From contig NZ_VJZZ01000005.1 in NCBI RefSeq assembly GCF_009659535.1, positions 186,001 through 250,000 of the forward strand: 64,000 nt of DNA, read 5' to 3'. Of this stretch, positions 37,181-62,313 are shown one piece after another (within the stretch, counting starts at the first letter, position 1; every line of letters starts with the position of its first letter). The DNA comes from Aggregicoccus sp. 17bor-14. Lineage in GTDB: Bacteria > Myxococcota > Myxococcia > Myxococcales > Myxococcaceae. The position numbers and the translations under genes were made by a program. The notes under the pieces are model-generated. The model saw only the letters and a program-made list of their open reading frames with translations. It searched no databases and was not told the DNA's origin.

Positions 37181-37198
37181 GGCGGTGCGCTCCTTTCG

Positions 37199-38539: not shown

Positions 38540-38570
38540 CGCCCTCTCCTCTCTCTGTGTTGCGGCGGGC

Positions 38571-40966: not shown

Positions 40967-40986
40967 GGCGTCCGACTCCTCTCTGC

Positions 40987-42183: not shown

Positions 42184-42260
42184 GGTTTTCCCTCGGGGCC
42201 GGCACGGCGCGCGCGGGCTCCTCCAGGAAGCAAGACTGGGCCGCTCTTCCGGGCGCCACA

Positions 42261-42276
42261 TCGGGACAAGCCCCGA
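42261..42276. promoter_or_regulatory. Shared palindrome upstream of operon A (TCGGGACAAGCCCCGA)
   Basis: One arm change from the perfect palindrome at 48485. It starts 77 bp before the amidohydrolase ATG. A half-site CCGGGACAA lies about 25 bp further up (42286-42294). The divergent GH15 gene at 42463 could also be controlled. Confidence 0.6.
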
Positions 42277-42462
42277 GCACGGACCCCGGGACAATGCGGC
42301 GGCCTGCTGCCGCGCCAGCCGGAGAGGCCCTGCGCAGGGCGGGCGCCCAGGGGTTTCTCCGAGGCGGCCAGGCAGCGCGCTCGGCGCCGGTCGCGACCCC
42401 GGCCTCATTGCGAGCGGGCGGCAGCGCGCCGCACCTTGAGCGGTCGAGCCAGGGAGGAAGCC

Positions 42463-44328
42463 ATGGAGCCCACCGCGCAGCCGCAGCAGCAGAGGGCCAC
42501 CCGCAGGGCCCCCCGCGTCCCGCACGCGGTGCAGCCGCGCGTGCTGATCGAGGACCACGCCCTCATCGGCGACCTGCACACCGCCGCGCTGGTGGGCAAG
42601 GACGGCGCCATCGACTTCCTGTGCCTCCCGGACTTCGACTCGGATGCCTGCTTTGCCTCGCTCCTGGGCGGCGAGGACAACGGCTTCTGGCGCATCTCCC
42701 CCACCCAGCCCGTGCAGGGGGTGCGCCGCCGCTACCGCGGCGACACGCTCATCCTGGAGACCGAGCTCAGCTGCGCGAGCGGCGCGGTGCGGCTCGTGGA
42801 CTTCATGCCCATCCGCGACGGCGCCCCGCAGCTGGTGCGCTTCGTGGAGGGGGTGCGGGGCGAGGTGAAGGTGCGCTCGCAGCTGCAGCCGCGCTTCGCC
42901 AACGGCCTCACCACGCCCTCGGTGCGCCGGCGCGACGGCACCTTCGGCGCGGTGGCGGGCCCGGACGCGCTCTACCTGCGCGGCCGCCCCGGCGCGGAGC
43001 CGCCGGGCTTCGACACCGAGCTCACGGTGCGCGCGGGCGACCGCGTGCCCTTCGTGCTCTCGTGGGCGCCGCCCTACGAGGACATCCCCCGGGCCCTCGA
43101 GCCGGACACCGCGCTCGAGGCCACCGAGGCCTTCTGGCTCGAGTGGATCGACCGGGCGCGGCTGCCCGCGGGCTTCGAGGAGGTGGTGAAGCGCTCGCTG
43201 CTCACGCTCAAGGCCTGCTGCTTCGAGCCCACCGGGGCCATCGTCGCGGCGCCCACCTTCGGGCTCCCCGAGACGCCCGGAGGCGAGCGCAACTGGGACT
43301 ACCGCTTCTGCTGGGTGCGCGATGCGTCCCTCAGGCTCCATGCGCTGATGCGCGCGGGGATGTTCGAGGAGGGCAAGGCCTTCGGCCGCTGGCTCATCGA
43401 CGCGGTGGGCGGCGCGCCCGGGCAGCTACAGATCATGTACGGCCTGCGCGGCGAGCGGCGCCTCACCGAGGTCACCCTCCCCTGGCTGCAGGGCTACGGC
43501 GGCGCCGTGCCGGTGCGCATCGGCAACGGCGCCTACGACCAGTTCCAGCTGGACGTGCTCGGCGAGTTCGCCGCGGTGCTGCACACCGCGGTGGAGCTGC
43601 AGGGCACGCTGACCCAGGCCGCGGAGGGGGCGTTCCGCCAGCTTGCCCAGCACGTGGAGCGCGTGTGGCGAAACCCCGACCACGGCATCTGGGAGATGCG
43701 CGGCCCCAAGCGCCCCTTCACCGCCTCCAAGGTCGCGGCGTGGGCCGCGGTGGACCGCTGGCTGAGGGTGATCGACCAGTTCGGCCTGCAGGAGGACCGC
43801 GCGCGCTGGGAGCGGCTGCGCCAGCACATCTTCGACGAGGTGCTGAGCCAGGGCTACGACGCCGGGCGCAACACCTTCACGCAGTTCTACGGGTCGAAGC
43901 AGGTGGACGCGAGCCTGCTCTTCGTCCCCGCCACCGGGATGCTGCCGGCCACCGACCCGCGCGTGGTGGGCACCGTGAAGGCGATCGAGGAGGAGCTGCT
44001 CGTGGACGGGCTGGTGCTGCGCTACCGCACCGACCTGAGCGACGACGGGCTCGAGGGCGAGGAGGGCACGTTCCTGGCCTGCTCCTTCTGGCTCGCCCTC
44101 ACCTACCAGCTGCAGGGTCGCACGAAGGACGCGCGAGCGCTCTTCGACCGGGTGGTGGGCTTCCAGAACGACGTGGGACTTCTCGCCGAGGAGTACCTCC
44201 CCCGCGAGCGCCAGCAGCTCGGCAACTTCCCGCAGGCCTTCAGCCACCTCGCGCTGGTGAACTGCGCCTACACCCTGGCGGAGGGCACCCCGCCGGCCGA
44301 GAGCACGCGCGCGCCCCAGCTGCACTGA
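42463..44328 (+). CDS. GH15-family glycoside hydrolase (glucoamylase/trehalase-like)
   Basis: 621 residues. N-terminal beta domain 25-230 (IEDHALIGDLHTAALVGKDGAIDFLCLPDFDS), then the (alpha/alpha)6 barrel. RNWDYRFCWVRDA, AEEYLPRERQQLGNFPQAFSHLALV and GLRGERRLTEVTLP are the signatures of the GH15 group that splits trehalose or alpha-glucans. It lacks a signal, so it acts in the cytoplasm. AGGGAGGAAGCC precedes ATG 42463. Ten bp from the convergent MscS gene. Confidence 0.9.
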   Translation: MEPTAQPQQQRATRRAPRVPHAVQPRVLIEDHALIGDLHTAALVGKDGAIDFLCLPDFDSDACFASLLGGEDNGFWRISPTQPVQGVRRRYRGDTLILETELSCASGAVRLVDFMPIRDGAPQLVRFVEGVRGEVKVRSQLQPRFANGLTTPSVRRRDGTFGAVAGPDALYLRGRPGAEPPGFDTELTVRAGDRVPFVLSWAPPYEDIPRALEPDTALEATEAFWLEWIDRARLPAGFEEVVKRSLLTLKACCFEPTGAIVAAPTFGLPETPGGERNWDYRFCWVRDASLRLHALMRAGMFEEGKAFGRWLIDAVGGAPGQLQIMYGLRGERRLTEVTLPWLQGYGGAVPVRIGNGAYDQFQLDVLGEFAAVLHTAVELQGTLTQAAEGAFRQLAQHVERVWRNPDHGIWEMRGPKRPFTASKVAAWAAVDRWLRVIDQFGLQEDRARWERLRQHIFDEVLSQGYDAGRNTFTQFYGSKQVDASLLFVPATGMLPATDPRVVGTVKAIEEELLVDGLVLRYRTDLSDDGLEGEEGTFLACSFWLALTYQLQGRTKDARALFDRVVGFQNDVGLLAEEYLPRERQQLGNFPQAFSHLALVNCAYTLAEGTPPAESTRAPQLH

Positions 44329-44338
44329 GCGCGCGAGC

Positions 44339-46036
44339 TCAGTGCGGCTCGCTCGCGGCGGCGGGCTCCAGCCGACGCGGCTCGCTGGTCTCGGCGCGCG
44401 CGGCGTCCCGCGCCGGCTCGGCCTCCACCTGCTGCAGGCGGAAGGCGCGCACGGGGCCCGCGGGGCGCTGCTCGGGCGGGATGGCGGCGAGGTTGCCGTC
44501 GCGCGCGGACACGTAGTGCGGGCTCATGATCTCCACCCCCGCCTCGAAGAAGGCGTCCAGCACCGAGCGGTTGAGCGCCGCGAGGATCTCCTTGCGCCGC
44601 TGCGCCGCCTTCACCGCCACGCGCAGGGTGTGCCGCACGTAGAAGTCCTCCAGCCCCACCTGCCACACCACCGGCTCGGGGCTCTCCAGCAGGTCCGGGG
44701 TGCGGCGCGCCGCCGTGAGCAGCAGCCGCTCCACCGTGCGCCACGGCACGTCGTAGCCGATGGTCACCGAGGTCTCGATGACCAGCCCGCCCGTGCCCCG
44801 CGTGGCCGCGGTGAAGTTCTCCAGCTGCCCCTGCAGGATGGCGGAGTTGGGGACGGTGATCTCCATCCCCTCCAGCGTGCGCAGCCGCACCACGAGCAGC
44901 GTCTTCTCCACCACCACGCCCATGCTGTCCCCCACCTTGATGCTGTCGCTCACCCGGAAGGGGCGCATGTACGTGATGACCACGCCGGCCACCACGTTGG
45001 CGATGGCCGCGGTGGAGCCCAGCGAGAGCACCAGGCCCAGGAACACCGAGACGCCCTGGAACGCGGGCGAGCCCGAGCCCGGCAGGAAGGGGTAGATGAC
45101 CACCGCGAAGAGCGCGAGCGCGAAGAAGCGGGCGATGTTGTACGTGGGCTCGGCCCACTCCGGGTAGAAGCGCGGCAAGGTGAGCCGCCCCGCCTGCACC
45201 TCGTTGCTCGCGAGCCGCACCATGCGCAGGAGCCCCCACGTCACCAGCGCCGCGACCGCGATGTAGAAGAGGTTGGGCAGGTAGCTCGCGATCCCCGCCA
45301 CCACCCAGGCCGCCGCAGCGCTCAGCCGCGCGGCGCTCGCGCGCGCGAAGCCGCGCGTCCACGGGAAGAGCCCCAGCACCAGCACGACCCAGGTCACGAG
45401 CAGCCCCAGCGTGAGCAGGCGGCGCGCGAGCGTGAGGCCGCCCAGCAGGATGCGGTCCGCGCGCATCAGCGAGAGCAGGTGGCCCTTGCCCCGGGCGCGG
45501 GCGAGGCGCGCATCCAGCCGCTCGCGCACGCGCCGCTCGAGCGGGCGCACGCCGCGGCTGAGCACCCGCAGCAGGAGGAGGAGGCCCAGGGTGAGCCCCA
45601 CCGCGATGAGCACCGAGCGCCCCAGCGCCTTGGCCGAGCGCGCGGCGAAGTCGCGCGCGAGCGCCGCGTGCAGGCGCTCCGCCGCCTCCTTCGCGAGCAC
45701 CTGGCGGGGCTTGCCGGCGAGCTGCGCGTCCGCCGCGCCGAAGCCCACCACCACCAGGTCCGCGGCCATCACCCCGCTCAAGCCCCCCACCTCCACGGTG
45801 TGGATCTGCTCGAGCACCTCATCCGAGCCGGCCGCGAGCCGCTCCACGCGCGCCTGCACGTTCACCGCCCGCTTCTCCGGCGGCACGCCCTGCATCGGGG
45901 CCAGGATGCGGAACAGCTCCTCGCCGCGGAAGCGCACCGGCGCGGGCGGGGGCGCGCTCTCGTCCAGCTGCGCGTGTGCGCTTCCCGCGCCCAGCACCAG
46001 GGCGAGCAGCAGCAGGGGGGCGCGGAAGGTGGACAT
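44339..46036 (-). CDS. MscS-family mechanosensitive channel with signal peptide and periplasmic N-domain
   Basis: 565 residues. Signal SAHAQ, a periplasmic domain of about 110 residues, then five or so membrane helices. The pore helix and first beta part read LGSTAAIANVVAGVVITYMRPFRVSDSIKVGD with ITVPNSAI following, the core MscS signature. It should open under membrane tension after osmotic downshift. It is the last gene of operon B, 47 bp after the small exported protein. Confidence 0.9.
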   Translation of the reverse strand: MSTFRAPLLLLALVLGAGSAHAQLDESAPPPAPVRFRGEELFRILAPMQGVPPEKRAVNVQARVERLAAGSDEVLEQIHTVEVGGLSGVMAADLVVVGFGAADAQLAGKPRQVLAKEAAERLHAALARDFAARSAKALGRSVLIAVGLTLGLLLLLRVLSRGVRPLERRVRERLDARLARARGKGHLLSLMRADRILLGGLTLARRLLTLGLLVTWVVLVLGLFPWTRGFARASAARLSAAAAWVVAGIASYLPNLFYIAVAALVTWGLLRMVRLASNEVQAGRLTLPRFYPEWAEPTYNIARFFALALFAVVIYPFLPGSGSPAFQGVSVFLGLVLSLGSTAAIANVVAGVVITYMRPFRVSDSIKVGDSMGVVVEKTLLVVRLRTLEGMEITVPNSAILQGQLENFTAATRGTGGLVIETSVTIGYDVPWRTVERLLLTAARRTPDLLESPEPVVWQVGLEDFYVRHTLRVAVKAAQRRKEILAALNRSVLDAFFEAGVEIMSPHYVSARDGNLAAIPPEQRPAGPVRAFRLQQVEAEPARDAARAETSEPRRLEPAAASEPH

Positions 46037-46083
46037 GGGAGAGGCCGCGTCCAGGGGCGCCTAGGCGCCGGTCCTGGAGAGGT

Positions 46084-46368
46084 TCATTGCACGTTCACGA
46101 CGACGTACTGCGAGCCGGACGGCTGGTAGTAGGTGCCGCCGCACTGCTGCAGCGAGGTGCCGTTGACCACCACGGTGGTGCAGCCCTTGGGCAGCGTGGC
46201 CACGTACATGGACGTGGCGTAGATGGCGCGCCGGGTGGTGCGGCGCGCCACACCCGCCACGCTCACCGGCGTGAGCGGGCGGCCCACCACCGCCTCCGCC
46301 TCGGGGACCAGGGCGGGCAGGGCCAAGAGCGCGAGGGCCCACAACTTCTGCTTGCGAGAGGTGCTCAT
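46084..46368 (-). CDS. Small exported protein (DUF6515-like?)
   Basis: 94 residues. A Sec signal covers residues 1-26. The mature part has 66 residues, with GCTTVVVNGTSLQQCGGTYY and QYVVVNV; it looks like a short beta domain with one Cys pair. Overlaps the DUF2092 stop as ATGA with GGAGCACAGCG upstream. Probably works with the DUF2092 protein. Confidence 0.72.
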   Translation of the reverse strand: MSTSRKQKLWALALLALPALVPEAEAVVGRPLTPVSVAGVARRTTRRAIYATSMYVATLPKGCTTVVVNGTSLQQCGGTYYQPSGSQYVVVNVQ

Positions 46369-47174
46369 CGCTGTGCTCCCTCTGCTCCGGCTGCGAGCTC
46401 ACCCAGCTCGTTGGTGGCGAGCGAGTCCACCTTCTTCGCGCCGGCCGGCGGCGTGAAGGCGAAGCGCTGGGCGTCCAGCTTCGGCTGCAGGTTCCACTTG
46501 TGCAGGCGCACGGCGTACTGGGGCGCGCCCGTGACCCACTTGCTGGTGATGACGTACTTTACCGGCAGGGGCTTGTCGCCGCGCTGCACCCACAGCTGCC
46601 AGTCCACCTGCGCCGCGCGGAAGGCGAGGTGATCGCAGTCCACGCCGTCCACCACCGCGGGGCCCAGGTACATCCCGCTGCTCACGTCCGTGAGCATGCC
46701 CTCGGCGGGCTTCGCGTAGAGGAGGTCCGCTCCGCCGATGTCCAGGTTCGCCTTGGTGCGCAGCGCGTCGATGGCCTCGTCGATGCTCCGGGGCCCGCTC
46801 AGCTGGTAGTACATGTTCGCGTTCTTGCCGAGCAGGGTGACGGTCTGGCCGTCGAAGAAGAGCTCTGCGTCGGCGAAGCCGCCGCGGCGGGTGGCGTACA
46901 GCTTGCCGGGCCGCTGCGCGGCGATGGTGCCCGAGGCGCTGAACTGCAGCTTCTGCCCGTCGGTGTCCATCACCTCGTTGTCCACGTCGTAGTCCACGGT
47001 GAAGGCCTGCTGCGCGGCGAGGAAGCCGGACATCGCCTTGAGGATGCGGTCGGCGTCCGCGTCGATCTTCGCATTCGCCTTGGGTTGCGCCGGCGCGAGC
47101 CCCGCGCCGAGCGCGAGCGCGGCGAGGGCCAGTGCGCGCAGCAGCGCGTGTGCTCTGGAGGCTGGGGGTCTCAT
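46365..47174 (-). CDS. DUF2092-domain exported protein
   Basis: 269 residues. Signal AALALGAGLAPAQ. The body (ADRILKAMSGFLAAQQAFTV, YATRRGGFADAELFFDGQTVTL, DLLYAKPAEGMLTDVSSGMYLG, LPVKYVITSKW) is the DUF2092 fold, which resembles LolA/LppX-like lipid carriers. It may carry a lipid or lipoprotein in the periplasm. Start has GGAGAAGCGC upstream. Confidence 0.82.
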   Translation of the reverse strand: MRPPASRAHALLRALALAALALGAGLAPAQPKANAKIDADADRILKAMSGFLAAQQAFTVDYDVDNEVMDTDGQKLQFSASGTIAAQRPGKLYATRRGGFADAELFFDGQTVTLLGKNANMYYQLSGPRSIDEAIDALRTKANLDIGGADLLYAKPAEGMLTDVSSGMYLGPAVVDGVDCDHLAFRAAQVDWQLWVQRGDKPLPVKYVITSKWVTGAPQYAVRLHKWNLQPKLDAQRFAFTPPAGAKKVDSLATNELGELAAGAEGAQR

Positions 47175-47187
47175 GCGCTTCTCCGTG

Positions 47188-47589
47188 CTAGGGGCGCGCG
47201 GTGCGCCGCCTCGCGGGCAGGTGGTGACAGATGCGGTTGGTGAAGGCGCGCGTGAGCGTGAAGGGCAACCACACCAGGATGGCGCCCACGATCAGCGCGC
47301 CCAGGAGGCGGATGCGCCCCAGGGTGAGGTACTGGAGGACGGAGTCCATGCACACGGCGAGCGTGAGCGGGATGGCCGCATCCGAGAACGACTGCTTGAG
47401 CAGCTGCCAGCGCCGCCGGTGCGCGTGGAAGAGCCGGAGGAAGAAGGGCCGCTGCCCCTCGCGCGCATCCGCCACCCCCAGCCTCAGGCCCAGGAGGAAG
47501 GCCATGAAGGGCTGGAGGAAGAGGCGGAACTGGCCCCGGCCGGAGGTGAGGTTGCGCACCAGGTCGTCCCAGAAGCCGGCGAGCTCCAT
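47188..47589 (-). CDS. Small membrane protein of operon B
   Basis: 133 residues. LQPFMAFLLGLRLGV and LLGALIVGAILVWLPFTLTRAF are likely membrane helices; a third (AAIPLTLAVCMDSVLQYLTLG) lies between. I do not recognise a named family. It begins 6 bp after the beta-barrel gene stop and 13 bp before DUF2092, so it is cotranscribed. Confidence 0.72.
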   Translation of the reverse strand: MELAGFWDDLVRNLTSGRGQFRLFLQPFMAFLLGLRLGVADAREGQRPFFLRLFHAHRRRWQLLKQSFSDAAIPLTLAVCMDSVLQYLTLGRIRLLGALIVGAILVWLPFTLTRAFTNRICHHLPARRRTARP

Positions 47590-47595
47590 CGCTGC

Positions 47596-48360
47596 CTACT
47601 CGAAGCGCAGCCCGAACATGATGGGGATGTAGTCGCCGTTCGCGTGCTCGTTGGAGTTCGCGAGCTCGGGCCCGAAGATGTAGTGGTAACGGCCCTCCGC
47701 GTAGAGCCGCAGGCCGCCAGCCACGCGCACGCTGAAGCCCACGCCGCCGTTGATGCCCCAGTCCGTGGAGCTGCGCGAGCCGAGGATGGTCTCCACCGAG
47801 ACCGCGCTCGGGTAGCAGTAGAAGAGCCACGGGTCGCACACCGGGACCACCGTGGTCCCGGCGAACTGGGTGAGCTCCACGCGCCGGTAGTAGAGGCCGC
47901 CGCCGCCCAGCAGGTACGCGGTGAAGGGCCCGCTTCGCACCACGTTGCCCACGATGTCCACCGTGCCGTACTGCATGCGGTGGTTCGCATCCAGGGCCGT
48001 GCTGTTGAAGATGTTCCCGTTCACGCCGTAGTGGCTCCAGTAGGCCTCCACCTGGGCGCCGAGGTAGCGGTTGAAGTTGAAGCCGACGCCGGCGTTGAAG
48101 CCGTAGCCCACGTTGAAGCGGTCACCCGTCTTGCCCATCGGGATGGAGGGGCCACCTCCGACGAAGCCGAAGACGGGCGCGACGTGCTCGGTGTGGCTGT
48201 ACTCGAGCGGTTCCGTCTCCATCGACGTGTGCGTCGTCGTCGATGTGCTCGTTCCCGGATCCGCAGGTGGGGTCTCCACCGGCGGCTGATCCTGCGCGGC
48301 AACGGGCTGAGCGAGACCGAGCGCGAGCAGGCCCGGCAAGACGTACGAGGCAAGGTGCAT
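47596..48360 (-). CDS. Outer-membrane beta-barrel protein, first gene of operon B
   Basis: 254 residues. Signal LLALGLAQPVAAQ, then an acidic/Thr linker and an eight-strand-like barrel (VFGFVGGGPSIPMG, FNVGYGFNAGVGFNFNRYLGAQVEAYW, TAYLLGGGGLYYRRVE) ending YIPIMFGLRFE. Resembles OmpA/opacity-type porin-like barrels. GGAGGGAGCC precedes ATG 48360, with the perfect palindrome 125 bp further up. Confidence 0.8.
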   Translation of the reverse strand: MHLASYVLPGLLALGLAQPVAAQDQPPVETPPADPGTSTSTTTHTSMETEPLEYSHTEHVAPVFGFVGGGPSIPMGKTGDRFNVGYGFNAGVGFNFNRYLGAQVEAYWSHYGVNGNIFNSTALDANHRMQYGTVDIVGNVVRSGPFTAYLLGGGGLYYRRVELTQFAGTTVVPVCDPWLFYCYPSAVSVETILGSRSSTDWGINGGVGFSVRVAGGLRLYAEGRYHYIFGPELANSNEHANGDYIPIMFGLRFE

Positions 48361-48484
48361 GGCTCCCTCCAGGTGAGGCCGTTTCCACAGATGGGCATGC
48401 GCCGCGCGCCTTCCATCGGTGGAAACCACGACCCCGCACCCGGGTACAACGCACGCACAGGGGGCGAGCCGGCGCGCGGGGGCC

Positions 48485-48500
48485 TCGGGACTTGTCCCGA
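48485..48500. promoter_or_regulatory. Perfect shared palindrome upstream of operon B (TCGGGACTTGTCCCGA)
   Basis: All seven bases of each arm pair around TT. It lies between operon B (start 48360) and the divergent membrane protein (start 48548). It is the best copy of the motif. Confidence 0.68.
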
Positions 48501-48547
48501 TCCGGCACGGCTGCAGAGGGCCTACTCTCCGGGTGGGAGCCCTCCGC

Positions 48548-49717
48548 ATGGACCTGCCGGCCAGCCTGCTCGACTTCTCGCTGGTGCGCGGCGGGCCCTT
48601 CGCCCGCCTGCTGCCGCGCAGTGCGCCGCGCCGCAGCCCCGAGCGCGCCGCGCTGCTCAGCGCGCTGGGGCTGGTGCTGCTCACCTGGGTGCCCCTGCCC
48701 CTCGTCGCACTGGTGGACGGGGGGCCCGCGGCCCTGCGCGCGCTGGCGGGCGACCTGCCCACGCACGCCCAGCTGCTGCTCACCCTGCCGCTGATGGTGC
48801 TGGTGGGGCCCTACATCGACCGGCGGCTCGCCATCGCGCTGCGCCTCTTCTGCTCCTCGGAGCTGGTGCGGGAGAAGGACCTGCCGCGGATGGCGCGCGA
48901 GGTGGAGCAGATCCACCGCCTGCGCGGCCACCCCGTGGCGGACGGCGTGCTGCTGGCGGCCGCGTACGCGCTCTCGCTCTTCCCCACGCTCGCGCTGTGG
49001 AGCAGCTGGGCGGTGCGCGCGGACGCCCACCTCACCGGGGCAGGGCGCTGGTACCACTGGGTGGGCGTTCCGCTGCTGCGCTTCGTGCTGCTGCGCTGGG
49101 TGTGGCGCACGCTGATGTGGGACGTGCTGCTCTTGCGCATCTCGCGGCTGCCGCTGGTGCTGGTGCCCACCCACCCGGACCGCGCCGGGGGCCTGGGCTT
49201 CCTCGCCATCTTCCAGGCGAGCTTCGGGGCGCTCGTGTTCGCCATCGCCTGCACGGTGGCGGCGGCCATGCGCAAGCGCCAGGAGCTCACGGCGCTCGCG
49301 GACCTGCTGCGCTACGCGAGCCCCCTGCTCGTGCTCGCCGCGGTGTCGGTGGTGGTCATCTTCGCGCCGCTCGTCTTCTTCTTCCCCGTGCTGCTGAGGA
49401 CCAAGGTGCGGGGAGACGAGCACTTCTCCATGCTCGCCGCCCTGCACTCCCAGCACTTCGAGGCGCGCTGGTTCGGCCGCGAGGCGTGGGCCCAGCGCCG
49501 CGCCGCGGGCGACGAGGTGCTCGGGGCGCCGGAGATCTCCTCGCTCACGGACCTCGGGACCTCGTTCGAGGTGGAGCGCCAGCTGCGCCTCGTCCCGCTC
49601 GGCCGCCGCCCCGTCCTCACCGTCGTCGCCTGTGCGCTCGCCCCCGTGGTGCCCCTGCTCATGTCCCAGCGCCAGTTCCTCACGGTGGTGCTGCAGATGG
49701 CGAAGCTCTTCTTCTGA
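48548..49717 (+). CDS. Uncharacterised polytopic membrane protein
   Basis: 389 residues with about six membrane helices (LGLVLLTWVPLPLVALV, LLLTLPLMVLVGPYIDRR, GVLLAAAYALSLFPTLALW, PLLVLAAVSVVVIFAPLVFFFPVLL). PTHPDRAGGLGFLA is a conserved-looking loop. I do not recognise the family. ATG 48548 has a weak ribosome site. Divergent from operon B and 47 bp from the palindrome. Confidence 0.7.
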   Translation: MDLPASLLDFSLVRGGPFARLLPRSAPRRSPERAALLSALGLVLLTWVPLPLVALVDGGPAALRALAGDLPTHAQLLLTLPLMVLVGPYIDRRLAIALRLFCSSELVREKDLPRMAREVEQIHRLRGHPVADGVLLAAAYALSLFPTLALWSSWAVRADAHLTGAGRWYHWVGVPLLRFVLLRWVWRTLMWDVLLLRISRLPLVLVPTHPDRAGGLGFLAIFQASFGALVFAIACTVAAAMRKRQELTALADLLRYASPLLVLAAVSVVVIFAPLVFFFPVLLRTKVRGDEHFSMLAALHSQHFEARWFGREAWAQRRAAGDEVLGAPEISSLTDLGTSFEVERQLRLVPLGRRPVLTVVACALAPVVPLLMSQRQFLTVVLQMAKLFF

Positions 49718-49723
49718 TGGCGC

Positions 49724-50407
49724 CTAGCGGGCGAGCACCAGGTTGAGCAGCGTCACCTGCTCGGCGGGGCTGAGGCCCGTGAAGCCGGCGGGCAGGCTCA
49801 CGGTGGCGGGCACCTCGCGCGAGCCCGCGCAGTTGCGCTTGCCCTCGTAGCTCAGCTCGCCGCCGGCCCCGCCCGAGCCACCGGTCGCGCTCCCGGCGGC
49901 GGCGCCCGCGCGCTGCAGCACGTAGGTGCACTTGAGGAACTGCCCCTCGAGCTTCTGCGGCGTGAGCAGCAGCTGCGAGCCGGAGCCCGCGAACATCCCC
50001 TTGGCCATCAGCTGCCCGCCCTGCTGCGCGAACTGCAGCCGCGTCGTGTTGCTGCCCACCTGCCCCACCACCTCCGAGTCGCTGAGCGTGAGGTCCACCG
50101 TGGCGCCCGCGATGCGCCCGCGCGCCGCCTTCGGGTCCACCGAGACGCTCACCTGCGGCGCGGTGAGGGTGCCATCCTTCAGCTGCCCACTGGTGGCGCG
50201 GCCCGCGGCGTTGACCACGATGTTGCCCTCGACCTTTGCGCCGCTTCCGCTCGCGGAGGACGCCGCACTGCCGGAGCCGCCGGTGCCGCTGCTCGGGGCC
50301 GCGCTGCCGCCGGAGGAGGCGCCGGGGGAAGCCCCCTGCGACGAGGGGGTGGCACAGCCGCAGAGCGTGGCGAGAGAGACGAGCAGCAGGAGGCGACGAG
50401 TGGACAT
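49724..50407 (-). CDS. Ser/Gly-rich lipoprotein of unknown function
   Basis: 227 residues. Lipobox LCGC (Cys18). Residues 19-55 are Ser/Gly/Ala. The body (VEGNIVVNAAGRATSGQLKDG, VDLTLSDSEVVGQVGSNTTRLQF) is beta-rich. A Gly/Ser patch and a Cys near the end. No family recognised. A weaker copy of the shared motif is 49 bp upstream. Confidence 0.7.
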   Translation of the reverse strand: MSTRRLLLLVSLATLCGCATPSSQGASPGASSGGSAAPSSGTGGSGSAASSASGSGAKVEGNIVVNAAGRATSGQLKDGTLTAPQVSVSVDPKAARGRIAGATVDLTLSDSEVVGQVGSNTTRLQFAQQGGQLMAKGMFAGSGSQLLLTPQKLEGQFLKCTYVLQRAGAAAGSATGGSGGAGGELSYEGKRNCAGSREVPATVSLPAGFTGLSPAEQVTLLNLVLAR

Positions 50408-50455
50408 GGGAGCTCCCTTTCGCTGCACGGATGCGGCAGGCCGCGGCGCCGCGCC

Positions 50456-50471
50456 TCCGGACAAACCCGGG
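50456..50471. promoter_or_regulatory. Weaker copy of the shared motif (TCCGGACAAACCCGGG)
   Basis: 48 bp before the lipoprotein ATG. Shares GGACAA and CCCG with the perfect site, but the arms pair less well. The copy at 63263 has the same first 14 bases (TCCGGACAAACCCG) and sits 46 bp before its gene. Confidence 0.45.
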
Positions 50472-50644
50472 GGAAGGCGCGGCCGGAGGTGGGCGCGGCC
50501 GCAGGGGGCGGGGCCGAGCGTGCGCCTGCGGCGCGAGAATCGACGCGTCCCCGGGTTTGCACCGATGGTCGGCCCGCATCCGGTGTGCACCGTTCCTCCG
50601 CTGGCACCGCAAAAAAAGCGCACGCACCGGTCACTGGAGGCTGC

Positions 50645-51118
50645 ATGACCGACGACCACTGGCTCGACGAGGCCATCCGACTCGCCTACGAGAACGTGCG
50701 GCACGGAGGGCGCCCCTTCGGCGCACTGCTGCTGCGCGAAGGGCGGATCCTCGCCACCGGGGTGGACCACACGCTGCAGGACTCGGACCCCACCGCGCAC
50801 GCGGAGCTGCTCGCGCTGCGCGCGGCCTGCCGGGAGCTGGGCACGCTCACCCTGCCCGGCACGCTGCTCGCCGCCAGCTGTGAGCCCTGTGCGCTGTGCC
50901 AGGCCGCGGCGCTGCTCGCCGGCGTCCCCCGCTGCATCTACGCCGCCGAGCAGGCCCAGGCGCTCGTCAGCGGCGCGGACCCCGGCACGCTGACGCGCCA
51001 CCTCGCGATGCCCCCGGCGCAGCGCCCCCTCTCGCTCGAGTACCGCCCCCTCGCGCTCGCGCGGGTGCCGCTGGATGCCTGGCACATGCGCCAGCAGAAG
51101 GGGCTCGCGAAGCCGTAG
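50645..51118 (+). CDS. Cytidine/deoxycytidylate deaminase-family (nucleoside or guanine) deaminase
   Basis: 157 residues. Zinc site: His52 and Glu54 in TAHAELLAL, Cys82 and Cys85 in PCALC. GRPFGALLL and TGVDHTLQDSDPTAHAE match the guanine/tRNA-adenosine deaminase group. TGGAGG lies 4 nt before ATG 50645. Likely cytoplasmic purine or nucleoside salvage; the base is not known. Confidence 0.88.
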   Translation: MTDDHWLDEAIRLAYENVRHGGRPFGALLLREGRILATGVDHTLQDSDPTAHAELLALRAACRELGTLTLPGTLLAASCEPCALCQAAALLAGVPRCIYAAEQAQALVSGADPGTLTRHLAMPPAQRPLSLEYRPLALARVPLDAWHMRQQKGLAKP

Positions 51119-51217
51119 CGCCGGCTCCCTGCTCGTGCATCGAGCGGCACGCCGCGCCGGCGCGTCCTCGTCCCCGGGTCCGAGGCGGAGGGGCGGGCGC
51201 AGCCCCATCTGTCCCCC

Positions 51218-51856
51218 ATGCAAGCACGAACGAAGCAGTGTTCCCCCTGGTGTTCCTCCTCAGGCCTCGGGCTGCTGCTGGTGGCCCTGCTGGGCAGCGG
51301 TTGCGCCTCCACGCAGCTCAAGGGGGTGTGGAAGGCGCCCGACCCCGGCCCCAAGGTGAGCCGGGTGCTGGTCATCGCGCTCACGCGCAGCGAGACCGGC
51401 CGCCGCACCGTGGAGCGGCAGTTCGCCTCCCGCCTGCAGGCGGCGAAGGCGCAGCCCTTCGAGAGCAACCGCTTCGAGTCCGGCCAGCCCCTCGACCGCG
51501 CGAAGGTGGAGGAGCTGGTGAAGCGCGAGAACTTCGACTCGGTGCTGCTCGTGCGGCTCGTGGACGTGCACCAGGAGGAGCACTACGTGCCCGGCGGCTA
51601 CGCGGGCTACTACGGCCCCGCGGGCGGCGGCTTCTACGGCTACTACGGCTACGCGTACCCCATGGCCTACAGCCCCGGCTACGTCTCGCAGAGCACCACC
51701 GTGCAGGTGGAGACCCAGCTCTACCGCACCCAGGGCCAGGGCCAGCTGGTGTGGAGCACCGTGTCCGAGACCCTGGACCCCTCCAACGTGGAGAGCGCGG
51801 CCTCGGGCATCGCCAACGCGGTGGTGGAGCGCCTGCACGAGGACAAGCTCCTCTAG
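51218..51856 (+). CDS. DUF4136-like lipoprotein with Tyr/Gly-rich insert
   Basis: 212 residues. Lipobox LGSGC (Cys29), then STQLKGVWKAPDPGPKVSRVLVIAL and ETQLYRTQGQGQLVWSTVSETLDP, similar to DUF4136-type outer-membrane lipoproteins. Residues about 127-160 are a Tyr/Gly-rich loop (GGYAGYYGPAGGGFYG). Ends 17 bp from the convergent asparaginase gene. Function unknown. Confidence 0.75.
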   Translation: MQARTKQCSPWCSSSGLGLLLVALLGSGCASTQLKGVWKAPDPGPKVSRVLVIALTRSETGRRTVERQFASRLQAAKAQPFESNRFESGQPLDRAKVEELVKRENFDSVLLVRLVDVHQEEHYVPGGYAGYYGPAGGGFYGYYGYAYPMAYSPGYVSQSTTVQVETQLYRTQGQGQLVWSTVSETLDPSNVESAASGIANAVVERLHEDKLL

Positions 51857-51872
51857 TGCAGGCGCCCGGGCC

Positions 51873-53036
51873 TCAGTAGGTGTTGAAGATCTGCTGCACG
51901 GCCTTGGGGTCCTTCGTCTTGGTCAGCGCGAGCTGCGCGAGCACGCGGGACTTCGCAGGGTTGAACTCGCCGGAGGCGACGAAGCCCATCTTGTCGTCGT
52001 CCACCTCGTTGTTGCGCAGCACCAGGCCGGTCGCGAGCCGCGTGCTGCGCACCGCGAGCACGCCGTTCTGGGTCACCGCCTTCTCCAGCGCCGCGAGCGC
52101 CTCCTTCGTCATGTTGCCGTCACCCACGCCGGCGATGACCAGGCCCTTGGCGCCGTTCGCCACGGCAGAGGTGATGAGGTCTGGCGACATGTTCGCGTGC
52201 GCGTAGATGATGTCCACGCGCGGCAGCGCCTGGAGCGTGTCCACCGAGAACTCCGAGCGCGTGGTCTGCCGCTTGTCCATGGGCTCGAACCACGCGATCT
52301 TCCCCGTGTTCACGAGCCCCTGGGGACCCCGCTCGGGGCTGGCGAAGGTCTGCACGTTGGTGGTGTTCAGCTTCTCCACGTTGCGCGCCGCGTGGATCTC
52401 GTCGTTGATGACCACCAGCACGCCGCGGCCCTTGGCCTTGGGGTCCGCTGCCACCGCGACCGCGTTGTAGAGGTTCGCGGGGCCGTCCGCGCCCACCGCG
52501 GTGGCGGGCCGCATCGAGCCCACCAGCACCACCGGCTTGTCGCTCTTGGTCACGAGGTTGAGGAAGTAGGCCGTCTCCTCCATCGTGTCCGTGCCGTGGG
52601 TGATGACCACGCCGGCCACGTCCTTCTTGCTCAGCACCTCGTTCACGCGCTTGGCCAGCTTCAGCCAGATGGCGTCGCTCATGTCCTGGCTGCCCACGTT
52701 GGCCACCTGCTCACCGGTGAGGTTCGCCAGCTCCTTCATGGAGGGCACCGCGTCGATGAGCTGCTGGATGTCGAAGGCGCCGGACTTGTAGCCGTACTCC
52801 TTCTGGCTCGCTTGCGCGCCGGCGATGGTGCCGCCGGTGGCGAGCACCACCACGTTCGGCTTCGACGGGTCCGTCTGCGGCTTCGCGGTGGTGGGGGTGG
52901 CGGCGGGAGCCGGCTGCTTCGCCACCGGCGCGCTCGGGGTCTGCTGCGCGGCGACGACCGCCGAGCCCAGGGCAGCGCACAGCGCGAGGCCGCCGAGCGC
53001 CCGTCCCCAGAACTGACTCTTCACTTCGACCTTCAT
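51873..53036 (-). CDS. ansB: Type II (periplasmic) L-asparaginase
   Basis: 387 residues. Signal LALCAALGSAVVAAQQ, Pro/Ala linker to 58, then the type II fold. Thr70 (VLATGGTIAG), Tyr81, THGTDTMEE with Thr149-Asp150, and KPVVLVGSMRP with the catalytic Lys are all present. It hydrolyses asparagine to aspartate and ammonia outside the cytoplasm. GGAGG stands before ATG 53036. Last gene of operon C, 11 bp after aspD: its product aspartate is what AspT takes up. Confidence 0.94.
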   Translation of the reverse strand: MKVEVKSQFWGRALGGLALCAALGSAVVAAQQTPSAPVAKQPAPAATPTTAKPQTDPSKPNVVVLATGGTIAGAQASQKEYGYKSGAFDIQQLIDAVPSMKELANLTGEQVANVGSQDMSDAIWLKLAKRVNEVLSKKDVAGVVITHGTDTMEETAYFLNLVTKSDKPVVLVGSMRPATAVGADGPANLYNAVAVAADPKAKGRGVLVVINDEIHAARNVEKLNTTNVQTFASPERGPQGLVNTGKIAWFEPMDKRQTTRSEFSVDTLQALPRVDIIYAHANMSPDLITSAVANGAKGLVIAGVGDGNMTKEALAALEKAVTQNGVLAVRSTRLATGLVLRNNEVDDDKMGFVASGEFNPAKSRVLAQLALTKTKDPKAVQQIFNTY

Positions 53037-53047
53037 GACGTCCTCCT

Positions 53048-54730
53048 TCAGTGCACCTGCTGGGTTTCCTGCTTCCACTTCTCCACGGCGCTGCCCACCA
53101 GCTCCTGGAGGTGACGGCCGATCTGCGGGTAGGCGGCGTCATCCAGGTTGGCGAGCGAGATGCGTGCGGACCACGGCGGCCCGTGGAAGCCGCCGCCGTT
53201 GAGCAGCACGGTGCCGAAGAGCCGCGCCAGCGCGAACACGATGTCCAGCGGGTCGTGGTTCTCGCGCACGTAGTCCACGAAGTCCTCCCCGATGACCTTG
53301 CGGCAGTAGGCCTCCAGATCCAGGGTCTGGTAGTAGGCCGTGCGCAGCGCATCCGGGGTGAGCTCCACGCCGAGGCCCTCGAAGAGTCCGCGCAGCCGCT
53401 CCTCGCAGATCTGCCGGCAGCGCTTCTGGTACGCGTCCTCCTCGTCCAGCAGCGCGAAGGCGGAGAACAGGGTCATCATCACCTGCTGCGGCAGGGAGAG
53501 GCCGGCGGTGTGGTTGAGGGCGACGAAGCGGCTGTCGGCCACCAGCCGGTCGATGAAGCGCAGCTTCTCGGGCTCGGTGGTGATGGACTGGTAGCGGTGG
53601 TTCACCACCTCGCGTTCGTGGGCCGGCAGCCGCGCGATGAGGGCGTCCGCGAGGTGGTCCTCGTTCATCCCGATGACGCCCAGCCGCCAGCCCGTGCAGC
53701 CGAAGTGCTTGGAGAACGAGTAGACCAGCAGCGTGTTGTGGGGCAGCTCCGCCGCGAGCGAGCGGAAGCCCTCCACGAAGGTGCCGTACACGTCGTCCGT
53801 CACGATGAGCAGGTCCGGCCGGCGCGTGCGCACCAGCTCCACGAGCCGCTGCAGGCCGCTCTGCCGCATCGCCACCGACCCCGGGTTGGAGGGGTTCACG
53901 AGGAAGAAGGCCTTGATGCGCGGGTCCGCGAGCTTGTCGAGCTCCGCGTCCGGGTACTGCCAGGTGTGCCGGCCGCCCGCGTCCAGCTCGCTCGCCTCCA
54001 CGTTCACCACCTGGAAGCGGCACTCGTCCAGGTGCGGGATCTCCAGGTAGGGCGTGAACACGGGCGTGCCCAGCGCGATGGTGTCCCCGGGCTCGAGCAG
54101 CCGGTTGGTGAGGAAGGAGTGGAAGAGGTAGGTCATCGCCGCCGTGCCGCCCTCCACCGCGAAGAGCTGCAGCCGGCCCGGCGGCGGGCGCCCGGCACAC
54201 ATCGTCTTGGCGAGGAAGGCGCGCACCACCTGCTCGGCGTGCACCAGCATCCGGTCCGGCACCGGGTAGTTGTCCCCGATGATCGCGTCCACCAGCTCCC
54301 AGACGAAGCTGTCCGCGTCGAAGCCCAGCTCCTCGACGCCGTAGGTCACCGTGCGGCGCAGCAGCACGCCCCCCGGGTCCGCGGCGTGCGCCTCGAGGTA
54401 GGCGCGCAGCCTCCCGGCGATGCCCGGGGAGCGGGGCATCCCCGCGAGCCCCACCTCGGGCTCGTCCCGCACGCGGCGGGCCTCCTGCAGCGCGAAGGCG
54501 CCGAGCAGGAAGAAGGCCTCGCGCGGCACGGTGGCGATCCAGTTGGGGTTGCCGCGCCCGGCGTTGAGCATCACGGCGGCGCGCGTGCGGGCCGCCTCGT
54601 CCGCGATGTCGATCAGCTCGTCCTTCAGCTCGAAGGGGCTGAGCAGCCCCACCGCCGTCACCGCCTGGGGGAGGCGCTGCTTCAGGCTCTGCGTCGAGGT
54701 CTGGGACGAGGGTGGCAAGGACGTCTGCAT
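53048..54730 (-). CDS. aspD: Aspartate 4-decarboxylase / aspartate aminotransferase
   Basis: 560 residues. A class I/II PLP fold with Lys341 in SFSKHFGCTGWRLG and the long insertions of AspD (GIIDAP-type segment LVDAIIGDNYPVPDRMLVH). It turns aspartate into alanine and CO2, taking up a proton in the cytoplasm. No signal peptide. 20 bp after aspT: this pair is the proton-motive aspartate:alanine cycle known from Tetragenococcus. Confidence 0.9.
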   Translation of the reverse strand: MQTSLPPSSQTSTQSLKQRLPQAVTAVGLLSPFELKDELIDIADEAARTRAAVMLNAGRGNPNWIATVPREAFFLLGAFALQEARRVRDEPEVGLAGMPRSPGIAGRLRAYLEAHAADPGGVLLRRTVTYGVEELGFDADSFVWELVDAIIGDNYPVPDRMLVHAEQVVRAFLAKTMCAGRPPPGRLQLFAVEGGTAAMTYLFHSFLTNRLLEPGDTIALGTPVFTPYLEIPHLDECRFQVVNVEASELDAGGRHTWQYPDAELDKLADPRIKAFFLVNPSNPGSVAMRQSGLQRLVELVRTRRPDLLIVTDDVYGTFVEGFRSLAAELPHNTLLVYSFSKHFGCTGWRLGVIGMNEDHLADALIARLPAHEREVVNHRYQSITTEPEKLRFIDRLVADSRFVALNHTAGLSLPQQVMMTLFSAFALLDEEDAYQKRCRQICEERLRGLFEGLGVELTPDALRTAYYQTLDLEAYCRKVIGEDFVDYVRENHDPLDIVFALARLFGTVLLNGGGFHGPPWSARISLANLDDAAYPQIGRHLQELVGSAVEKWKQETQQVH

Positions 54731-54750
54731 GGCTCGAGGCTCCAGGGGCT

Positions 54751-56592
54751 TCAGTCGAGGCTCGCCATCAGGTAGCAGGCGAGCGTCACCAGCACGTTGC
54801 TGAGCGCGAAGGTGACCGGGTACGAGAGCGCAGGCACGGAGCTCTGCGTGAGCTCCTGGGCGGTGCTCAGGCTCGCGCTGCTGCAGCGCGCGCCGGCGAT
54901 GGCGCCGGTGAGCAGCCCCGCGTTCAGCCTGAAGAGGGACTGGCCCAGCACCCACCCGAGCACCGGTGGCACGAGGCCTACCACCACCGTCCCCACCAGG
55001 ATGGGGGTGAGCGCGCCCGCCCCCACCGCCGAGACCACGCCTGCGCCCACGTTGAGCGCGGTGACGGCGACGAACACGTTGAGCCCCAGGTCCTCGAGCA
55101 GCTGGCGCGCGGGCTCGGGGAAGGGTCCGCCCAGCGTGGGGTTGCGCGTGCGCAGCAGCGAGATGGCGATGCCCGTCATCAGCAGCCCCACCGCCGCGCC
55201 GAGCTTCAGGCTCAGCCCGAAGAGGGGAATGGGCAGGCTGCCCAGCAGCGCGCCCACTGCGAGCCCCACCGCGAGCGTGACGATGTCCGTGGAGACGCTG
55301 GGGCGCACCACGCGGCCGTCCACCAGGCGCTGCAGCTCGCGCACGCGCAGCGCGCTGCCGGTGAGGCGGAACACGTCCCCGCGCTGCACCACGGTGTCCG
55401 GGCCGAAGGGGATCTCCGCGCCCGCCCGGAACACGGCGTTGACGGTGAAGCCGTGCCCGCCCGCGCGCAGCAGCTCTCCCACCGTCCTGCCGATGGCCCG
55501 CGCCCCCGAGGCCACTACCTCCACCGTCTGCACGCCCACCGCGCTGAGCGCGGCGTCCACCACCTCGGGGCCCACCCGCTGCCCCGCGCGCAGCATCGCC
55601 GCGGGAGGGCCGCTCAGCACCACCGTGTCGCCCCGCTCGAGCCACAGCGAGTCGGAGGGCTCGAGCACCCGGCCCCCGCGTCGCACGCGCTCCACCGCCA
55701 CGTGCGGGAAGTGCTCGCGCAGCTCGCCGAGCGCGCGCCCCGCGAGCCCCTCCTCCTGCAGCTGGTAGACGCGCACCTCCACCCCGGGGTCGCTGGGCGT
55801 GAGCGCCTCGGCGGTGCTCGGCAGCGGGCGCGTGCCGGCCTGCTCGAGCTCGCGCTGGTAGGCCGCGGACTCGCTCACCGCGTCCCTGCCGAAGGCGCGC
55901 GGCAGCAGCTTCATCATCACCACGAAGAGCACCAGGCTCACGCAGTACCCGAAGGCGAAGGCGGTGGAGAGGTTGGCGAGCGCGGGCGAGTCCGCGCCGT
56001 AGCGCGCCAGGTACACGTCCTTCGCCGCGCCGATGCCCGGCGTGGCGGTGTTCGCGCCCGCGAAGATGCCGGGCATCAGCCCGGGCGCGAGGTGGAAGAG
56101 CGCCTTCACCGCCAGCATCAGCCCCACCGAGAGCAGCGGCACCGCGAGGCCCAGGGTGATGAAGGCGCGCGCCGCGCGGCGCAGGCCGCTGAGGAACTGC
56201 GGCCCCACCTTCATCCCCACCGAGAACATGAAGAGGTTGAACATCAGCGTGCTGGCGAACTCCGGCACGCGGAAGTCCACGCCGCGCAGGCTCGCCCACA
56301 CGCTCGCGGTCAGCCCCACCACCAGGGTGGCCGCGGTGGCTCCCAGCTTCGAGGCGCCCAGCGGCACCTTGCCCAGCGCGTACCCGGCGGCGACCGTCAG
56401 GAAGAGCAGCACGAAGGGCTGCGAGTTGAGGAAGAGGAACACCGGCCCGAGGAAGCCCCGGGTCTCGGCGATGCCCGGCAGGCCCTGGGCCACCCCGCGC
56501 AGCAGCAGCAGCACGCCCAGCGCGAGCGCCAGGGACGCCGCGGCCCGCAGCGCGCGCTCACTGGGTGGGTGCGGCACGGTCTGCGCGGGCAT
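54751..56592 (-). CDS. aspT: Aspartate:alanine exchanger (AAE family)
   Basis: 613 residues with two membrane halves (FLTVAAGYALGKVPLG ... SVGMKVGPQFLSGLRRAARAF; LAVGLAVGALLGSLPIP ... GAIAGARCSSASLSTAQE) and a central cytoplasmic pair of RCK_C/TrkA-C domains at about 240-400. The repeats GIFAGANTATPG and GAIAGARCSSASL are the exchanger signatures. Swaps external aspartate for internal alanine and so builds a membrane potential. GGAGG stands 6 nt before ATG 56592. Longer than the roughly 540-residue lactic-acid-bacteria protein, partly at the N-terminus. Confidence 0.9.
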   Translation of the reverse strand: MPAQTVPHPPSERALRAAASLALALGVLLLLRGVAQGLPGIAETRGFLGPVFLFLNSQPFVLLFLTVAAGYALGKVPLGASKLGATAATLVVGLTASVWASLRGVDFRVPEFASTLMFNLFMFSVGMKVGPQFLSGLRRAARAFITLGLAVPLLSVGLMLAVKALFHLAPGLMPGIFAGANTATPGIGAAKDVYLARYGADSPALANLSTAFAFGYCVSLVLFVVMMKLLPRAFGRDAVSESAAYQRELEQAGTRPLPSTAEALTPSDPGVEVRVYQLQEEGLAGRALGELREHFPHVAVERVRRGGRVLEPSDSLWLERGDTVVLSGPPAAMLRAGQRVGPEVVDAALSAVGVQTVEVVASGARAIGRTVGELLRAGGHGFTVNAVFRAGAEIPFGPDTVVQRGDVFRLTGSALRVRELQRLVDGRVVRPSVSTDIVTLAVGLAVGALLGSLPIPLFGLSLKLGAAVGLLMTGIAISLLRTRNPTLGGPFPEPARQLLEDLGLNVFVAVTALNVGAGVVSAVGAGALTPILVGTVVVGLVPPVLGWVLGQSLFRLNAGLLTGAIAGARCSSASLSTAQELTQSSVPALSYPVTFALSNVLVTLACYLMASLD

Positions 56593-56715
56593 CGACAACC
56601 TCCAGGGCACTCGTCGAAACCACAACGTGCGCATGCGCTGCGCGCGCCACATCGCACTTTCAGTCGGCGCGCCGGAGCACGAGGGGCTTCGAGGAGGCCT
56701 CCCCTTCCCGTCCGT

Positions 56716-56731
56716 CCCGGACAAACCCCGG
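56716..56731. promoter_or_regulatory. Weak copy of the shared motif before aspT (CCCGGACAAACCCCGG)
   Basis: Agrees with the perfect site at 11 of 16 positions. Lies 46 bp from the better site at 56762, in the gap between the porin and aspT genes. Confidence 0.4.
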
Positions 56732-56761
56732 AGGCCCGCCCGGGCGCGCGCGCGGGCCTCC

Positions 56762-56777
56762 TCGGGGGAAGTCCCGA
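56762..56777. promoter_or_regulatory. Shared palindrome before aspT (TCGGGGGAAGTCCCGA)
   Basis: Six of seven arm positions pair around AA. It starts directly after the porin stop codon, 170 bp before aspT, and suggests a separate promoter for aspT-aspD-ansB inside operon C. Confidence 0.6.
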
Positions 56778-56778
56778 G

Positions 56779-58098
56779 CTACAGGCTCAGCTGGAGGCGG
56801 CTCTGGAAGAACAGCGTCTCGCCCTTCGCGCTGAAGCGGTCCAGGATGCCGTAGCCGTACGCGAACTCGAGCCGGACGTTGTCGGACATGTGCCAGTTCA
56901 GCATCGGCGTCACGCGCCAGAACTTCCCGCCGTGGATGCCCTGGTCGTCCAGGTCGATGTACGAGAAGCGCGCCACCGCCTCCCACGCTCCGGGGCCTCC
57001 CTCGAACACCGTCTTGTTCGGGGACACCGCGTTGAAGAAGCCGCCGCGCGTGTTGTACGAGCGCGTCTCGCCCGTGACGAGCCAGCTCACCACCACGTCC
57101 CCTCCGTGGAAGAGCGGATTGCCGTTCGGATGGGAGCTCGCCTTCTGCACGAAGTACTCCGTCCCGAAGAGCCAGCGCCCGGGCCGGTAGTACGCCTCCA
57201 CGCCCACCATGCGGGTGTTGGGGCTGGTGAAGTTCTCGGTGTCGACGAAGTAGGGGGCGGGGTTCGCCTCGGGGCGCGAGCGCAGCCGCAGCGTGTTGTC
57301 CAGCGGCTTGCCGTAGCGCAGGCTCACCCCCAGGTGCAGCAGCGTGCCCTTCTTCTCCGAGGCGATGGGCAGCCACATCAGGCGGGCCACGGCCTGGTTC
57401 TGGTAGGTGGAGAAGCTCTGCCCCTTGGACACCAGGTCCGTGTACACGCCGAGGTTCCAGAGGAAGCCGCGCTTGGGCAGGTAGCCCAGCCACTTGATGC
57501 CGTCCGCGAGGATGGGGATGGTCGCGTCGCTGATGGTGGCGCGCTCCATCGTCCAGCCCGCGTAGCCCACCATCACCTTGTTGAGCGAGAAGCCCTCCTT
57601 CGTGCGCCCGATGAAGAGGTGCCCCCACAGCTCCGGGACGGCGATCATGAAGCCCGTCTCGCGGAACAGCCACTCGTCGGTGACGCCGTCGTACATGATG
57701 CCGGTGCTGAAGGTGAGCCGCTTGAGCTTGGGGAAGCGCACCTTCAGCATCACGCGCGCGTCGCGCACCTTGGTGTCCGCCGCGAGCGGGAACTGGCCGC
57801 GGCTCGCCGCGTCCTGCGAGTAGGCCGCGCCCTCGAAGAGGAAGCCGCCGCCCACGCGGATCCCGATGTAGGGCCCCTCGTACTCGTTGAACTTCACCAG
57901 GCGGCGCTTGGGCTCCTGGAACTCGGACTCGCCCGCCTCGAGGGTGCTGTCGAGCGACGTGCCCTCTGCCGGGGCGGGCTCCGTCGCGGGCTCGGCCGCG
58001 GGAGCGGGCGGGGCCGCCTGCTCCTGGCCGCGCGCCGCGCCCGGCGCGAGCCACAGCGCAGCCGCGAGCAGCAACCCCGGGTGGAAGTGCGTGTCCAT
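56779..58098 (-). CDS. Phosphate-selective porin (OprO/OprP)-like outer membrane protein
   Basis: 439 residues. Signal LAAALWLAPGAARGQ, Glu/Pro linker, then VKFNEYEGPYIGIRVGGGFLFEGAAYSQDA and MLKVRFPKLKRLTFSTGIMYD, YYRPGRWLFGTEYFVQKASSHP, LEFAYGYGILDRF: the Porin_O_P pattern. Barrel ends FFQSRLQLSL. Probably lets amino acids or anions through the outer membrane for the exported enzymes. 13 bp after aspA. Confidence 0.85.
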   Translation of the reverse strand: MDTHFHPGLLLAAALWLAPGAARGQEQAAPPAPAAEPATEPAPAEGTSLDSTLEAGESEFQEPKRRLVKFNEYEGPYIGIRVGGGFLFEGAAYSQDAASRGQFPLAADTKVRDARVMLKVRFPKLKRLTFSTGIMYDGVTDEWLFRETGFMIAVPELWGHLFIGRTKEGFSLNKVMVGYAGWTMERATISDATIPILADGIKWLGYLPKRGFLWNLGVYTDLVSKGQSFSTYQNQAVARLMWLPIASEKKGTLLHLGVSLRYGKPLDNTLRLRSRPEANPAPYFVDTENFTSPNTRMVGVEAYYRPGRWLFGTEYFVQKASSHPNGNPLFHGGDVVVSWLVTGETRSYNTRGGFFNAVSPNKTVFEGGPGAWEAVARFSYIDLDDQGIHGGKFWRVTPMLNWHMSDNVRLEFAYGYGILDRFSAKGETLFFQSRLQLSL

Positions 58099-58111
58099 GG
58101 TCGTGCGCGGG

Positions 58112-59722: not shown

Positions 59723-59740
59723 GACGTTCTCCTTGGGGAC

Positions 59741-62190: not shown

Positions 62191-62313
62191 GGCGTCCACC
62201 TCGAGGTGCGAGGCCACCGGCCTGTCTCGCCCCTTCGTTGGGTACTGGCGGCGCGGCCTCCGGAATTCCGCTCCTGTCCGCGGGGGCAACTCCGCGCCGT
62301 GCGCTGCAGGTCC

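Follow-up and report, generated by a model that had tools for sequence, protein, structure and literature searches.

A 16-bp inverted-repeat motif at promoter-type positions before genes for exported and envelope proteins in a Myxococcaceae genome: predicted operators of one regulon

Class II activators of transcription bind at sites centred near -41.5. Among the described response regulators, NarL uses inverted repeats of the 7-2-7 type, placed for example at -44.5 (PMC7419079), and the DosR box has the consensus GGGACTWWAGTCCC, with four bases between its GGGAC arms (PMC2275270). The present study concerns a 16-bp motif and the genes that follow it in a window of 64,000 nucleotides (G000:C5:186001-250000) from the 6.92-Mb genome of Aggregicoccus sp. 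17bor-14, a member of the Myxococcaceae with ~73% G+C. We consider it probable that the copies of this motif are operators of one dimeric transcription factor acting by class II activation, and that the predicted regulon is centred on C5:228-259 kb with outliers on contigs C8, C13, C7 and C6. The operator and its regulon add a further case to a familiar type of gene switch.

The degenerate motif common to the copies, read toward the gene, is TCSGGRYTTGTCCSGA (reverse complement, TCSGGACAARYCCSGA). The copies present in the window are listed below in window coordinates; scores are those of the 16-mer matrix, and the composite element is the 16-mer together with a -10-like hexamer at a fixed offset.

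42261..42276, minus strand: TCGGGGCTTGTCCCGA, toward the amidohydrolase operon A (ATG 42183), 0 mismatches to TCSGGRYTTGTCCSGA and 0 mismatches to the composite element
48485..48500, plus strand: perfect 7-2-7 copy TCGGGACTTGTCCCGA, toward the membrane protein gene at 48548
50456..50471, minus strand: CCCGGGTTTGTCCGGA, before the lipoprotein gene (ATG 50407)
50550..50565, plus strand: weak copy CCCGGGTTTGCACCGA, toward the deaminase gene (ATG 50645), 13.2 bits
56716..56731, minus strand: CCGGGGTTTGTCCGGG, before aspT, 20.4 bits, without a -10-like hexamer at the fixed offset
56762..56777, minus strand: weak copy TCGGGACTTCCCCCGA, doubtful member, between the porin stop codon and aspT, 13.2 bits
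63263..63278, minus strand: TGCGGGTTTGTCCGGA, before the SBF-family transporter gene
63289..63304, minus strand: second, weaker copy TCGGGGTTTCTGCGGA, 17.3 bits

The series goes on past the window with a site at C5:258538 (window coordinate 72538). A sequence-only reading of the window had already picked out the 16-mers TCGGGACTTGTCCCGA at 48485, TCGGGACAAGCCCCGA at 42261 and TCGGGGGAAGTCCCGA at 56762, as well as weaker copies at 50456, 63263 and 56716; all are present, and its values of 48 and 46 bp from 50456 and 63263 to the start codons are correct. The copy at 56762 was described there as differing in one arm base and in fact differs at two positions (arms TCGGGGG / GTCCCGA). This copy, the weakest member of the series, immediately follows the stop codon that ends the porin gene (56779) and has a strong G+C-rich inverted repeat (56730-56761) next to it. 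The same reading placed 42261 before operon A, which holds, and 48485 before operon B, which does not: 48485 is located in a divergent intergenic region, and because of its orientation and of its -10-like hexamer we assign it to the plus-strand membrane protein gene (ATG 48548).

The likeness to NarL/NarP sites, as in the NarX-NarL system of Escherichia coli, resides in a 16-bp inverted repeat, near the -35 region, of 7-bp elements separated by 2 bp (perfect at 48485), and in a candidate NarL-type regulator with an adjacent HisKA_3 kinase. The motif differs by its half-site (TCSGGRY versus the NarL consensus), by a fixed central AA/TT, invariant across copies, and by one half being much better conserved than the other; apart from 48485, most sites are poor palindromes with 3 to 7 of the 8 dyad pairs matching. 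With the DosR/DevR box of Mycobacterium tuberculosis (TTSGGGACTWWAGTCCCSAA) it shares GGGAC arms arranged as an inverted repeat and the putative involvement of a LuxR-type response regulator, but two bases, not four, separate the arms, the outer bases differ and the targets are exported and envelope proteins. The identity of the operator with a DosR box was rejected on this spacing. The literature searched did not contain GGGACTTGTCCC as an operator, nor anything relevant on the module in Myxococcus.

Within the window, five sequences match TCGGGACTTGTCCCGA with at most 3 mismatches where 0.57 are expected, a number reached in none of 100 shuffles, and the core GGACAARYCC occurs five times (0.33 expected). 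Searched over the whole genome with at most one mismatch, TCSGGACAARYCCSGA has nine sites and the reversed control pattern none. All nine are intergenic, seven of them in divergent and two in tandem regions and none in a convergent region, convergent spaces constituting ~10% of the intergenic DNA. Five of the nine cluster within 30 kb (C5:228261-258553, one just outside the window), with a chance bound of ~2e-7. A matrix was also built from five training sites, all in the window (42261, 48485, 50456, 56716 and 63263), and run over C5, C7, C8, C13 and part of C6, ~23% of the genome, with a threshold of at least 16 bits and 40 column-shuffled matrices as control. The 1.54 Mb of this sequence that lie outside the window are ~90% coding, and six of the seven 16-mer matches found there are intergenic; the shuffled matrices gave a mean of 3.6 matches, 0.57 of them intergenic (maximum 2 intergenic). 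With the composite matrix, seven of seven matches outside the window are intergenic (shuffled mean 0.40 intergenic, maximum 3 intergenic). The scan of intergenic against coding hits by which the earlier proposal was to be checked thus came out in its favour, and shuffles, reversed control and intergenic excess all agree with its statement that chance explains the 16-mers poorly.

When the sites are read in the TTGTCC direction, many of them are followed exactly 22 bp downstream by a YANYCT-like hexamer:

42233..42238, minus strand: -10-like CAGTCT, 22 bp behind the 42261 16-mer
48523..48528, plus strand: -10-like TACTCT, 22 bp behind the 48485 16-mer
50428..50433, minus strand: -10-like CATCCG, behind the 50456 copy
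63235..63240, minus strand: -10-like CACTCC, behind the 63263 copy

Two further hexamers of this kind lie outside the window, CAGCCT (C5:258538) and TACCTT (C13:133038). The dinucleotide YA stands at offset 38 in four of the five training sites and in four of nine other sites, against a background of 0.065 (P = 0.0017 for the nine, in a test that is not fully blind, the offset having first been noticed while all sites were in view); the next best offset has YA in two of the nine. The composite element, at one mismatch or fewer, occurs six times in this genome (6.9 Mb) and twice in ~90 Mb of 13 relatives. These results support a fixed -10 spacing. If the hexamer is taken as a -10 element, the dyad falls near -42.5, a position where class II activators bind. 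The intergenic excess and the spacing of the -10-like hexamers, together with the promoter-type positions, support the earlier proposal of one regulon under one dimeric regulator.

The mechanism that we propose is one in which, at a typical target, the 16-mer is oriented with TCSGGRYTTGTCCSGA reading toward the gene and is followed after 22 bp by a weak -10 hexamer, YANYCT, with no good -35 element evident, so that a factor bound at about -42.5 would touch RNA polymerase and thereby activate the promoter. The activator would be a NarL/FixJ-type response regulator encoded on C8 and paired with a GAF-GAF-HisKA_3 kinase, and the activated targets would include exported glutaminase, asparaginase and aspartase, AspT and aspartate decarboxylase, with changes in porins, lipoproteins and an MscS channel.

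No apparent regulator is encoded at C5:215-275 kb or in that part of the window which was examined, in agreement with the sequence-only reading, which held that the regulator is encoded elsewhere. The best candidate is the response regulator at C8:337201-337842, with REC (PF00072, 1e-23) and GerE (PF00196, 5e-21) domains, whose divergent neighbour at C8:338081-340228 is a kinase with GAF, GAF, HisKA_3 and HATPase_c domains; two GAF domains and HisKA_3 are also the layout of DosS and DosT. The closest solved relatives of the regulator are VraR and NarL, ahead of DevR. A site at C8:337883, 49 bp before its start, gives it the best upstream composite score among the 13 GerE-domain proteins of the genome (13.9 bits, the next reaching 9.2), and it is the only one of the GerE genes seen in context that stands among other sites. 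We therefore tentatively propose this response regulator, with its adjacent kinase, as the factor that binds the operators.

The same sites might instead be used by another protein or reflect something other than regulation. Binding by a different activator, either a CRP/FNR-type protein or another of the 13 GerE-domain proteins, is somewhat unlikely. Written as TCSGG-N6-CCSGA, the motif has the 5-N6-5 arm geometry and the spacing of a CRP site as well as a position near -42, but only the spacing agrees, as its half-sites do not match the TGTGA-N6-TCACA of CRP/FNR. The genome encodes 12 further GerE proteins and the matrix scan covers only about a quarter of it; the upstream score and the surroundings of the C8 regulator nevertheless speak for this protein. 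Another GerE protein, C15:27704, looks closer to DosR in its recognition helix, but no operator site was found upstream of it. Quite unlikely is a dimeric repressor, of the TetR, GntR or a similar family, that would block RNA polymerase at the -35 region. Repressors often have palindromic operators and a site at about -42.5 covers that region, but the sites show no conserved -35-like hexamer with the right spacing, as would be expected for activator-dependent promoters, and neither the C5 nor the C8 island revealed a gene of repressor type; we infer activation rather than repression.

Terminators or RNA hairpins are an extremely improbable source of the 16-mers: such a role would suit 56762, with its place behind a stop codon and beside a strong inverted repeat, but convergent regions contain none of the nine best sites, covariation between the arms does not exceed that of shuffles, and five of ten sites have a broken pair 3-14, so that this interpretation was rejected. 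It is just as hard to credit a chance similarity of G+C-rich intergenic DNA. The base composition of the genome and the different composition of intergenic DNA and genes could favour such a similarity, but the intergenic excess is absent with column-shuffled matrices of equal composition, the reversed control gives none against nine, and the sites are clustered.

Several observations weigh against a single regulon of class II promoters controlled by the C8 regulator. A plain 7-2-7 site would not typically have an invariant central AA/TT or symmetry as poor as that of most copies, and the copy at 56716 (aspT), like several sites on C8 and C7, lacks the -10 hexamer at the fixed offset. The site before the C8 response regulator is itself weak (10.5 bits with the 16-mer matrix, besides its modest composite score). 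Upstream of orthologues in other genera, including near aspT orthologues, no enrichment of sites was found, and the Anaeromyxobacter-like genomes described below, which have orthologues of the regulator and the kinase, present no comparable set of sites.

The relatives were those of a 40-genome search in which this genome is the only member of its genus; its placement in the family rests on named relatives, Pyxidicoccus caerfyrddinensis, Corallococcus terminator and Citreicoccus inhibens. In the 39 relatives, the motif has no more matches than the reversed control and these are often inside genes. Conservation of the sites before orthologues, on which the earlier proposal had also been staked, thus fails outside the genus, so that either the regulon is particular to this lineage or its motif has diverged. 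The motif and shared palindromes were also sought in six intergenic stretches of the corresponding cluster of genome G114, which we take to be a Myxococcus, and none was convincing. Orthologues of the C8 regulator (48-51%) and of the kinase (44-45%) occur in G052, G053 and G056, presumably Anaeromyxobacter-like genomes, and were not found in the other Myxococcaceae searched. The missing sites in these other Myxococcaceae fit with the missing regulator, while those in the Anaeromyxobacter-like genomes do not help. A scan of the annotated genomes for AspT retrieved five loci. In G114 a homologue of the HAD-family protein encoded on C8 adjoins aspT and an outer-membrane homologue is nearby, in Corallococcus terminator and a Myxococcaceae metagenome-assembled genome the outer-membrane homologue follows aspT, and in G094, presumably a Corallococcus, the HAD homologue adjoins the SBF transporter. 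Genes that have sites on C5 and C8 are therefore neighbours in relatives, which provides independent support for one functional set.

The gene calls on which the targets rest came from a simple codon-statistics caller, so that individual starts may be off. The genes and operons near the sites in the window are the following:

36530..42183, minus strand: operon A, exported amidohydrolase, DcaP-like porin, exported glutaminase A, outer-membrane protein, FMN-reductase-like protein
44339..48360, minus strand: operon B, beta-barrel protein, small membrane protein, DUF2092, DUF6515, MscS channel
48548..49717, plus strand: membrane protein of 389 amino acids without Pfam match, probable target of the 48485 site
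49724..50407, minus strand: lipoprotein of 227 amino acids, resembling the lipoprotein behind the next site, C5:258538
50645..51118, plus strand: deaminase, weakly TadA-like (below cut-off)
51873..56592, minus strand: AspT-family antiporter, aspartate 4-decarboxylase, exported type II asparaginase
56779..63216, minus strand: SBF-family transporter, DUF3300, DUF2950, exported aspartate ammonia-lyase, porin

The aspartate 4-decarboxylase scores far above its cut-off and the antiporter below the AspT equivalog cut-off (335 vs 547 bits). The aspartate ammonia-lyase (window 58112-59722) bears an N-terminal signal-like extension and is for this reason probably exported, aspartase being normally cytoplasmic. 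As in the known proton-motive cycle of AspT and aspartate 4-decarboxylase with glutaminase, asparaginase and aspartase, the enzyme pair is encoded side by side; the difference here is that the pair stands behind a shared operator together with porins, DUF3300/DUF2950 proteins, exported deamidases and an exported aspartase. This gene content suggests a release of ammonia outside the inner membrane and a consumption of protons inside by aspartate decarboxylation, as part of an envelope response to acid or amino-acid stress.

Outside the window, the matrix matches mostly precede genes for exported proteins, outer-membrane proteins or lipoproteins, one lipoprotein being related to that of the window at 50407. 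At C8:332 kb the targets are an outer-membrane protein and a lipoprotein (sites 332110, 332124 and 332149), and the site at C8:335338 has a hybrid kinase on one side and an exported HAD-family protein on the other. The target on C13 is a sulfatase, with a presumably DUF1254-like reading frame opposite; the remaining targets are a Phenol_MetA_deg protein (C7) and an exported protein of unknown function (C6).

The analysis provides a concrete operator, a target list and a candidate regulator for poorly studied exported proteins (DUF3300, DUF2950, DUF2092, the periplasmic aspartase and the AspT module), parts of which recur together in Myxococcaceae, as well as conditions (acid, amino acids, oxygen or redox) under which genes of unknown function can be tested. 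A rather doubtful extension is that the GAF-HisKA_3/NarL two-component system, common to Anaeromyxobacter-like genomes and not seen in the other Myxococcaceae searched, took over a conserved cluster of exported amino-acid and envelope genes in one lineage through new operators at most of its promoters, which would be a rewiring of a neighbourhood and not of single genes. If the two-component link is true, a gene cluster conserved between genera would have gained a new switch at many promoters in one lineage.

Some other features were recorded in the course of the analysis. A dispersed intergenic element around (T/A)CCGGAAAACCCCCGA, located at C5:352412, C5:389599 and C13:73620, with further matches at C2:160614, C14:124326 and C3:230204, resembles the operator and looks like a separate repeat family where examined. 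Similar exported proteins adjoin operator sites on two contigs, at window 51281-51856 (GCASTQLKGVWKAPDPGPKVSRVLV) and C8:336498-337184 (GCASTKLADVWKAPDPGTPPRKVLV). The locus L111 (C8:318045-321746) encodes a lipoprotein of 1233 amino acids with ~20 tandem repeats of the type DDGNACTADSCDPATGVKH, and an operator-like copy lies 113 bp upstream of it. Two neighbouring and closely similar lipoprotein metalloproteases, at 28948-29835 and 30719-31576 of the window, apparently result from a recent duplication.

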